Made by a program: the position numbers and the translations under genes | Part shown: positions 3,332-57,839 of the stretch, piece after piece | Numbering within the stretch: position 1 is the first letter of the stretch | Layout: each line of letters begins with the position of its first letter | NCBI GenBank assembly: GCA_904393835.1 | Contig: CAJFNC010000006.1 | Span: forward strand, 25,622-89,621 | From: an uncultured Ruminococcus sp. | Lineage (GTDB): Bacteria > Bacillota > Clostridia > Oscillospirales > Acutalibacteraceae | Length of the DNA: 64,000 nucleotides | Direction: 5' to 3' | Notes under the pieces: model-generated | Told to the model about the DNA's origin: nothing | Databases searched by the model: none | Seen by the model: the letters and a program-made list of their open reading frames with translations, nothing else

Positions 3332-3344
3332 AGGGAGAATAACT

Positions 3345-4127
3345 ATGTTTGTTCTTAAAAGTAAAGATAATGCCGTTGTTAAAAGCACCGTAAAGCTCAA
3401 AAAAAGCGCCAGAGCCCGCCGAGAGAGCGGGTTATTTATTGCGGAAGGTGTACGGGTTTGCTATGATGCTGTTTTGAGCAACGCGAATGTTGTAAAATTT
3501 TTTTCGACAGAAAATGCTATGGAAAAGCATCGTGAAATTTTTGATAAAATTTCTGAAGTTGCCGATAAAACTATACTTGTCACTCCCGCAGTTTTTGCTC
3601 AAATCAGTGATACTCAGTCGCCGCAAGGCTTTCTTTGTGTTATAAAAACACTTGACAAAATTAGTCAGTTTGATACAATTAAAAATAGCGGAAAATTTCT
3701 TGCGCTCGAAAATGTGCAAGATCCTAATAATTTGGGCACTGTTTTACGTTCCGCGGAGGCTTTTGCTATAAGCGGAATTATTATGTCTAAGGATTGCTGC
3801 GATATTTACAATCCAAAGGTTGTCCGCGGCAGTATGGGAGCCGTGTTCAGACTTCCGTTTCTTATTTGCGATACAATAAAGGATTTCCTATATGCAAATC
3901 CGCAAATTACTTCTTTTGCGGCTGTTGTTGACAGTAATGCTGAAAAAATTACCGATGTTCAATTTGTCGCTCCGTGTGTTGTGGTTATCGGAAACGAGGG
4001 AAACGGCCTTTTGCAGACTACAGTTGACAGTTGCAGCCAAAAAATTACAATACCTATGACAGGAAAGGCTGAATCACTCAACGCCTCTGTAGCTGCATCA
4101 ATTATTATTTGGGAAATGATAAAATGA
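3345..4127 (+). CDS. TrmH/SpoU-family RNA 2'-O-methyltransferase
   Basis: ALENVQDPNNLGTVLRSAEAF, VVIGNEGNGL, ITIPMTGKAESLNASVAASI motifs. Confidence 0.9.
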   Translation: MFVLKSKDNAVVKSTVKLKKSARARRESGLFIAEGVRVCYDAVLSNANVVKFFSTENAMEKHREIFDKISEVADKTILVTPAVFAQISDTQSPQGFLCVIKTLDKISQFDTIKNSGKFLALENVQDPNNLGTVLRSAEAFAISGIIMSKDCCDIYNPKVVRGSMGAVFRLPFLICDTIKDFLYANPQITSFAAVVDSNAEKITDVQFVAPCVVVIGNEGNGLLQTTVDSCSQKITIPMTGKAESLNASVAASIIIWEMIK

Positions 4128-54848: not shown

Positions 54849-55219
54849 ATGTATAATCCTCAATTAGAGACTTTTATTTGTGTGGTAGAGGTCAGTAGCT
54901 TTAACAAGGCGGCAGAGCGTTTGTATATATCACCTCCGGCAGTAATTAAACAAATCTTAATTTGAAACTTTTTATTCGAACCCACCGAGGCTTGCAATTG
55001 ACTAAAGCAGGGCGCTCTCTTTATCAAGATGCAAAATACATTATCCAATACTGCAAAGATTCTGTGACGCGAGCACGAAATTCGATGCAAGAGAGTGACA
55101 GCCTGATCCACATCGGCACATCACCAATGACGCCTGCACAGGTATTGGTAGATCTATGGTCAACGCTCCAGCGATACTTCCCGAATATTAAGTTCCGACT
55201 TGTTCCTTTTGACAACACC
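54849..55219 (+). pseudogene. LysR-family transcriptional regulator remnant (frameshifted, C-terminally truncated)
   Basis: MYNPQLETFICVVEVSSFNKAAERLYISPPAVIKQI then out-of-frame NLKLFIRTHRGLQLTKAGRSLYQDAKYIIQYCKDS...KFRLVPFDNT. Confidence 0.8.
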
Positions 55220-55730
55220 CGCGGAAGATATGATCGTTGTTTCCGCGCAACTTACAGATTGGGGCGAAACATCAGCCGGACAGGCAATTGAACTGACAGA
55301 ATATTTTATCGCAAATTTTTCTGTTAATGAAAGCCGCATCTATGCGGCAGGTTATTCCGCCGGCGTAGAAACCATGTCCCGGGCTGTTTCTATGCGACCC
55401 GACTTATACGCCGCTTATCTCCATGGCGCTTCCCAGTGGGATGGCGAATTTGATTCTATTGCAGAAAATGGTGTGGCTGTTTACATTTTTATGGCGGAAG
55501 ATGATGAATATTACGGTTCCCAAAAGGCTCGCGATGCTTACGATGAATTGTATGACGCCTATTTAAATGTTGGCCGGAGTGAGAATGAGATTAACCAAGT
55601 TTTGCAGATCCTGACACCAAATGCAGCCTGGTTTGCAGAACGTGGTGTAACAGAAAATTACCACGGTGGAGGCAATGTGGTATTTGAGGAGACTTCAATT
55701 TTGAACTGGATTATTTCCCACAGCAAATAA
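55217..55730 (+). pseudogene. C-terminal fragment of alpha/beta-hydrolase (esterase-like), 5' end missing
   Basis: VVSAQLTDWGE...IYAAGYSAGVETMSR (GxSxG), later Asp and His candidates, but no N-terminal core strands; adjoins LysR remnant. Confidence 0.7.
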
Positions 55731-55811: not shown

Positions 55812-55848
55812 AAGCACTGCTTTATTAATTGAGCAGTGCTTTTTTATT
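55812..55848. terminator. Hairpin terminator between hydrolase remnant and XRE gene (convergent)
   Basis: AAGCACTGCT-TTATTAATTG-AGCAGTGCTT-TTTTATTTT. Confidence 0.8.
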
Positions 55849-55882: not shown

Positions 55883-56098
55883 TTATGACTTTTTAATAAT
55901 TTTATCAATTCCCAATACATAATCACTTGAAACATTGTACAGGCAACATAGCGCAATCAGATGACGTATTGGCAATTCACGTTTACCGTTTTCGTATTTA
56001 CTGTATTGTTCTTGACGTGTGTGTAAAATATAAGCAATTTGTTCCTGTGTATATCCGTGTTCAATTCTTAATTTTTTTAATTTTTTGCAGTAATCCAT
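55883..56098 (-). CDS. XRE-family helix-turn-helix transcriptional regulator (71 aa)
   Basis: MDYCKKLKKLRIEHGYTQEQIAYILHTRQEQYSKYENGKRELPIRHLIALCCLYNVSSDYVLG; SD AAGGTGG upstream of ATG at 56098. Confidence 0.9.
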   Translation of the reverse strand: MDYCKKLKKLRIEHGYTQEQIAYILHTRQEQYSKYENGKRELPIRHLIALCCLYNVSSDYVLGIDKIIKKS

Positions 56099-56158: not shown

Positions 56159-56384
56159 CAATTGCAACTAAAATATATGTTGAAGTATATGTGGATAAAT
56201 AAATCATGAATTATACAAAATACTTTAAGCTGCGTTTTGCGTTTTTCTTTATTTATATGTATATTTAAATAAATCATATTAAAATATGACAACCAAATAT
56301 TAAATACATCCATATATGATTAGCACTTGTGCACAATAGAGATATTGAGATATTGTGCATAATTAGAAAAATATTCCTATGATA

Positions 56385-56413
56385 TTGAAAATAATGCCAC
56401 AATATGATATTAT
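56385..56413 (+). promoter_or_regulatory. Putative gdhA promoter TTGAAA-N17-TATTAT
   Basis: Read directly; 95 bp upstream of gdhA ATG. Confidence 0.6.
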
Positions 56414-56445
56414 ATATACATCGGCAAAGAAGGCGATTTGTTTAA

Positions 56446-56468
56446 CAGCACAAGTGCGCCTTGTGCTG
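56446..56468 (+). repeat. 9-bp perfect stem-loop in gdhA 5'UTR
   Basis: CAGCACAAG-TGCGC-CTTGTGCTG. Confidence 0.8.
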
Positions 56469-56495
56469 ATATTTTATGTGAATTAAAATTAATAG

Positions 56496-57839
<1,344 letters not shown>

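Follow-up and report, generated by a model that had tools for sequence, protein, structure and literature searches.

TTGTGC words, missing YTGCA boxes and a structured leader at gdhA of an uncultured Ruminococcus sp.

The gdhA intergenic region and its TTGTGC words

In the window, the whole 64,000-nucleotide stretch of DNA that was analysed, the gene for glutamate dehydrogenase (gdhA) is separated from a divergent helix-turn-helix gene by an intergenic region of 409 bp, which contains a promoter, several short repeats and a foldable leader:

55883-56098, minus strand: 71-aa helix-turn-helix gene (XRE/HTH_3), divergent from gdhA
56323-56332: GCACTTGTGC, exact reverse complement of 56448-56457
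56327-56336: TTGTGCACAA, perfect but unconserved 10-bp palindrome at about -93 relative to the inferred start
56353-56362: TTGTGCATAA, a second, imperfect copy that lies 26 bp downstream of TTGTGCACAA, at about -67
56385-56413, plus strand: sigma-70-type promoter TTGAAA-N17-TATTAT
56420-56470, plus strand: 5'-terminal leader hairpin, 51 nt, minimum-energy fold (-21.5 kcal/mol, z about -4)
56446-56468, plus strand: compact hairpin CAGCACAAG-TGCGC-CTTGTGCTG, 23 nt, -12.3 kcal/mol
56508-57839, plus strand: gdhA, glutamate dehydrogenase, 443 aa (PF00208, PF02812)

The XRE-type gene adjoins gdhA divergently in nearly all close relatives, as full or partial matches, and is a candidate local regulator. 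The length of the intergenic region is roughly 395-410 bp in several relatives, and its promoter zone has diverged more from theirs (best 0.72) than the zone on the XRE side (best 0.84). Beyond the XRE gene, a strong intrinsic terminator with an 11 bp stem and a U run (55812-55841) lies downstream of the ORF at 55200-55730. The gdhA hexamers are 17 bp apart, within the 16-18 bp spacing of sigma-70 promoters, and score 10/12; the transcription start at 56420, about seven bases past TATTAT, was inferred from the -10 box only.

An earlier note on this DNA had reported TTGTGC words on both sides of this promoter, and direct reading of the sequence located every motif that it named. Specifically, the promoter is present at 56385-56413, the five words or their complements begin at 56327, 56331, 56353, 56448 and 56461, and GCACTTGTGC is the exact inverted repeat of GCACAAGTGC at 56448-56457. 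Chance was evaluated with 2000 dinucleotide shuffles of the 409-bp region, for a motif chosen post hoc: five TTGTGC copies were reached in 0/2000 shuffles, and any 6-mer with at least three G/C at five copies per 146 bp in 1/2000. Exact inverted repeats of 10 bp arose in 849/2000 shuffles when any composition was allowed and in 6/2000 when five or more G/C were required, so that the length of the inverted repeat is by itself unremarkable and only its G+C content is unusual. In addition, the words at 56327 and 56331 form a single palindrome, those at 56448 and 56461 are both arms of one leader hairpin, and 56353 stands alone; the five words therefore represent about three independent events. 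This reduced number, together with the divergence of the promoter zone and the absence of the motif elsewhere, is consistent with chance combined with local inverted duplication, by which hairpin, palindrome and stray copy would have arisen in a fast-changing AT-rich region. We regard this as somewhat unlikely, given that a comparable cluster of any kind appeared in a single shuffle of the 2000.

To place the words in a wider context, gdhA was located in 145 of 161 genus genomes, and 118 genus loci were read upstream in the proper orientation; close relatives were defined as 29 gdhA orthologues with 88-95% protein identity, one genome per species. TTGTGC or GCACAA is found in 4/29 close relatives, once each (three in the leader, one upstream of the promoter), leaving 28/29 with no TTGTGC upstream of the promoter. 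Across the 118 upstream regions, which are phylogenetically related and do not provide independent counts, TTGTGC is absent from 97, occurs once in 19 and twice in one, and reaches five copies in the window alone. Within the window's own genome, pattern searches revealed no TTGTGCAYAA or TTGTGC doublet before any other nitrogen gene. As a genome-wide operator, TTGTGCACAA was rejected, with TTGTGCAYAA elsewhere in the genome mostly intragenic and never at nitrogen genes; TTGTGC doublets were likewise rejected as the mark of a regulon, their 21 matches in the genome being mostly intragenic and gdhA the sole nitrogen gene among those read. The proposal of the earlier note that these words bind a nitrogen or carbon regulator thus fails the check which that note had itself set for the DNA motif, the words being missing upstream of the promoter in 28/29 close relatives; they are missing at other nitrogen genes as well. 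Because nearly all sister species lack TTGTGC and have another conserved repeat in its place, the words at gdhA probably reflect, as far as the sequences indicate, a local change.

YTGCA boxes at nitrogen genes of the genus

In most relatives, the repeat found at the same gdhA region consists of YTGCA boxes in direct orientation, spaced by 12-13, 21-23 or 32-33 bp. Such in-phase pairs are present in 25/29 close relatives and, counted over related loci, at 78/118 genus gdhA loci, and there is none in the window. The pairs upstream of gdhA concentrate at these spacings (12-13 bp, n=25; 21-23 bp, n=56; 32-33 bp, n=8), with 14 pairs in total at all remaining spacings within 6 to 40 bp and about 0.35 per spacing in shuffles. 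Spacings of one, two and three helical turns fit a protein bound side by side on one face of the DNA, and the fact that groups differ in spacing (13, 22 or 23 bp) argues for several independent arrangements. In most close relatives one of the boxes forms the -35 hexamer, a position that reads TTGCAA in relatives versus TTGAAA in the window. One group of loci (L154-L164) possesses an extra box past the transcription start, at a fixed 61 bp from the -35 box, such that sites do flank the promoter there, albeit with a sequence other than TTGTGC. For sister species, the earlier note was thus right to picture repeated regulator sites at the gdhA promoter; their sequence is not TTGTGC but YTGCA, in helical phase, and glnA and amtB share them.

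The boxes extend beyond gdhA. Type III glnA has 11 YTGCA pairs in 12 loci, all at 21-22 bp, and the pattern TTGCARGAA-N12..14-YTGCA gave 52 matches in 11 genomes versus 4 for a reversed control. For glnA, gdhA, amtB and gltB the surroundings of the matches were read or their coordinates compared: the pattern stands ahead of glnA and of gdhA in several genomes, two species have it at amtB, and one genome has it in the gap that separates gltB from a divergent gene; some further matches have no obvious link to nitrogen. Occurrence of the same arrangement at glnA (across the genus, window genome included) and at amtB (two species) makes it look like a nitrogen operator of the genus, one that appears to be undescribed: a targeted, narrow literature search returned no published nitrogen regulator with a YTGCA-type site, and nothing relevant for a TTGCAA box at glnA.

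Several individual sites were also recorded. At amtB in the two species (L312:1192, L313:1703), a TTGCAAGAAAATTAA...AAACTTGCAA site lies about 320-340 bp upstream, and a second YTGCA pair, 21 bp apart, is near the promoter. In another two species (L314, L315), TTGCAGGAA...CCTGCA is situated between phosphate-binding-protein-like and TrpB-like genes. At glmS of L321 (G156:C107), a YTGCA site is combined with a terminator-like leader hairpin, which suggests that glutamine-using enzymes may belong to the YTGCA regulon.

The window genome retains the YTGCA arrangement at glnA (L252) and lacks it at gdhA, where no YTGCA occurs upstream of the promoter and a single one is found at -5 from the start codon. 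The in-phase pair is also missing at L147 and L155, and a variant ATGCA box is kept at L148 and L149. As the intergenic length is unchanged, the boxes appear to have been lost by substitution in place. It might be supposed that the TTGTGCA copies derive from YTGCA boxes by divergence and are still recognised by the YTGCA regulator; both motifs share a TGCA core, and MAFFT aligns TTGTGCATAA with the TTTGCAAGAA box of relatives. Yet the distance to the -35 element differs, the copies lying 30 and 56 bp upstream of it versus 13 or 23, and 73-74, in relatives, and their mutual spacing of 26 bp is out of phase, all of which renders this supposition highly unlikely. A second possibility is that TTGTGCACAA and TTGTGCATAA form a true operator for a regulator private to this lineage, which took over gdhA once the YTGCA boxes were lost. 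Clustering beyond chance, a perfect palindrome, positions (about -93 and -67) that are frequent for activators, and the complete loss of in-phase boxes in the window species are all compatible with such an operator. However, it would have no second target among the nitrogen genes of its own genome, and 26 bp places the two sites on opposite faces of the helix, unlike the 12-13/21-23/32-33 bp rule of the genus; we therefore consider it unlikely.

The gdhA leader and hexaloop attenuators

The leader hairpin proposed in the earlier note exists as the compact structure at -12.3 kcal/mol, which a consensus scan called terminator-like, although the best fold is the longer hairpin of 56420-56470 at -21.5 kcal/mol. 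The two share a 3' arm, and the compact form requires the 5' arm to be out of the way. The suggestion of an RNA switch is partly supported: folding of the leader is significant (z about -4), though the best fold is a different one, and Rfam 15 gave no match above the gathering score for the window or for any of 11 related loci. Structure in this region is common: the 5' region of 29/43 leaders tested, the window's included, has a z below -2 relative to shuffles, with varying sequence and register. Weaker hairpins occur at the equivalent place in G170, G160, G129 and G030. Covariation of the compact hairpin was considered among the five closest species, too few sequences for a count; the hairpins predicted there at the equivalent place differ in register.

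The leaders of L154, L156 and L159-L164 contain two blocks just past the start, GTTGTTGAAAGAAA and CTCYTGCAAA, that are nearly invariant while the bases between them vary. A conserved RNA was rejected for the L154-L164 leader, the best alignable group, for which RNAalifold finds no consensus pairs despite the kept blocks, and this makes conservation at the DNA level more likely. The YTGCAAA box is located 33 bases past the -10 box in this group as well as in differently folded leaders such as L206 and L207. A literature search on gdhA leaders yielded nothing relevant.

Hexaloop hairpins characterize other leaders of the genus. Each of 12/12 glnA leaders has a short hairpin with the hexaloop AARGGY or AAUGGC (A1, G4), and hexaloop plus 3' arm serve as the 5' strand of an intrinsic terminator stem. 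This overlap is seen in 12/12 glnA and 19/118 gdhA leaders and in 0/1180 shuffles. Proteins combining a response regulator with an ANTAR domain are encoded in 27/40 genus genomes; the window genome has one (G000:C2:78052-78213, PF03861 plus a receiver domain), in a gene cluster of glnA, amtB-PII, ANTAR and carAB. By inspection and folding, its amtB leader fits the hexaloop-terminator design, and the type III glnA and amtB-PII have single hexaloops, AAGGGT and AATGGT, over strong terminators (L248, G000:C2:72000-88000, IG 495-1239 and 3334-3449); a dual hexaloop was found neither at its gdhA locus nor across its glnA-amtB-ANTAR region. Hexaloop-terminator leaders with AAAGGC or AATGGC in the loop also precede several genes for glutamine synthetase and glutamate synthase elsewhere (L249, G012:C15; L250, G010:C75), in one instance as a tandem pair, and gdhA shares its clusters there with ANTAR genes. 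The window gdhA leader was rejected as an ANTAR target, since neither a strict nor a relaxed scan detected a hexaloop with an overlapping terminator; to sketch its AAAGAA as a hexaloop by eye, a G.G mismatch has to be accepted.

These features bear on a further alternative, attenuation, in which the 56420-56470 hairpin and the AUUUUAUG following it would stop transcription, and the compact 56446-56468 hairpin would form when a protein or ligand holds the 5' arm. The two mutually exclusive folds with a common 3' arm suit this arrangement, and genus glnA and 19/118 gdhA leaders are clear attenuators with hexaloop antiterminators. Nevertheless, the U tract is weak, the window leader fails the hexaloop-plus-terminator scan, relaxed version included, Rfam offers no match and the compact hairpin is weaker by 9 kcal/mol. 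We hold attenuation to be possible, though doubtful.

Interpretation and known systems

With moderate confidence, we favour an ordinary sigma-70 promoter followed by a structured 5' leader, at a gdhA that in the window species has lost the genus-wide YTGCA nitrogen operator. The YTGCA boxes would be bound by a putative nitrogen-responsive protein, and the window gdhA would escape it. Through 5' protection or mild attenuation, the leader hairpin may act on the transcript itself, and the upstream TTGTGCACAA/TTGTGCATAA pair would be lineage-specific, serving some local factor as a site or having no function. Two observations weigh against this reading, namely that TTGTGC clustering is improbable by chance and that loss of in-phase boxes is not unique to the window. 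A more ambitious account is decidedly unlikely in our estimate: gdhA would have been rewired in the window species, the TTGTGCA palindrome pair and a coupled leader hairpin taking over from the lost YTGCA boxes, with the YTGCA regulator acting genus-wide on gdhA, glnA and amtB atop one-hairpin ANTAR-type attenuators at glnA.

Taken alone, the TTGTGC cluster would be a small regulatory peculiarity at the level of one species. Comparing it with relatives, however, points to an apparent nitrogen operator of a clostridial genus, with a clear helical-phase signature and no counterpart in the targeted literature search, and to the window gdhA as a natural case of one target gene leaving a regulon. 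It also makes the regulator findable, with glnA, gdhA and amtB fragments as bait and the window gdhA fragment as a natural negative control.

Stem-loops at the 5' terminus occur on bacterial mRNAs, and the window gdhA resembles these in having a stable predicted hairpin that begins at the inferred first nucleotide. Tandem transcription-factor operators in helical phase are known at nitrogen genes, for example those of NtrC and of the GlnR/TnrA type. Like these, the genus boxes are repeated at whole-turn spacing upstream of glnA, gdhA and amtB; they differ in being YTGCA direct repeats, and the window gdhA lacks any such pair. The published ANTAR leader element has two hexaloop hairpins (PMC3369931), whereas a single one is found in the genus, and nothing in the window gdhA leader fits the element. 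In other respects, the leaders of glnA, amtB and some gdhA genes of the genus are like those of the EutV, NasR and AmiR type (PMC3369931), with a hexaloop that carries A1 and G4 and overlaps a terminator.
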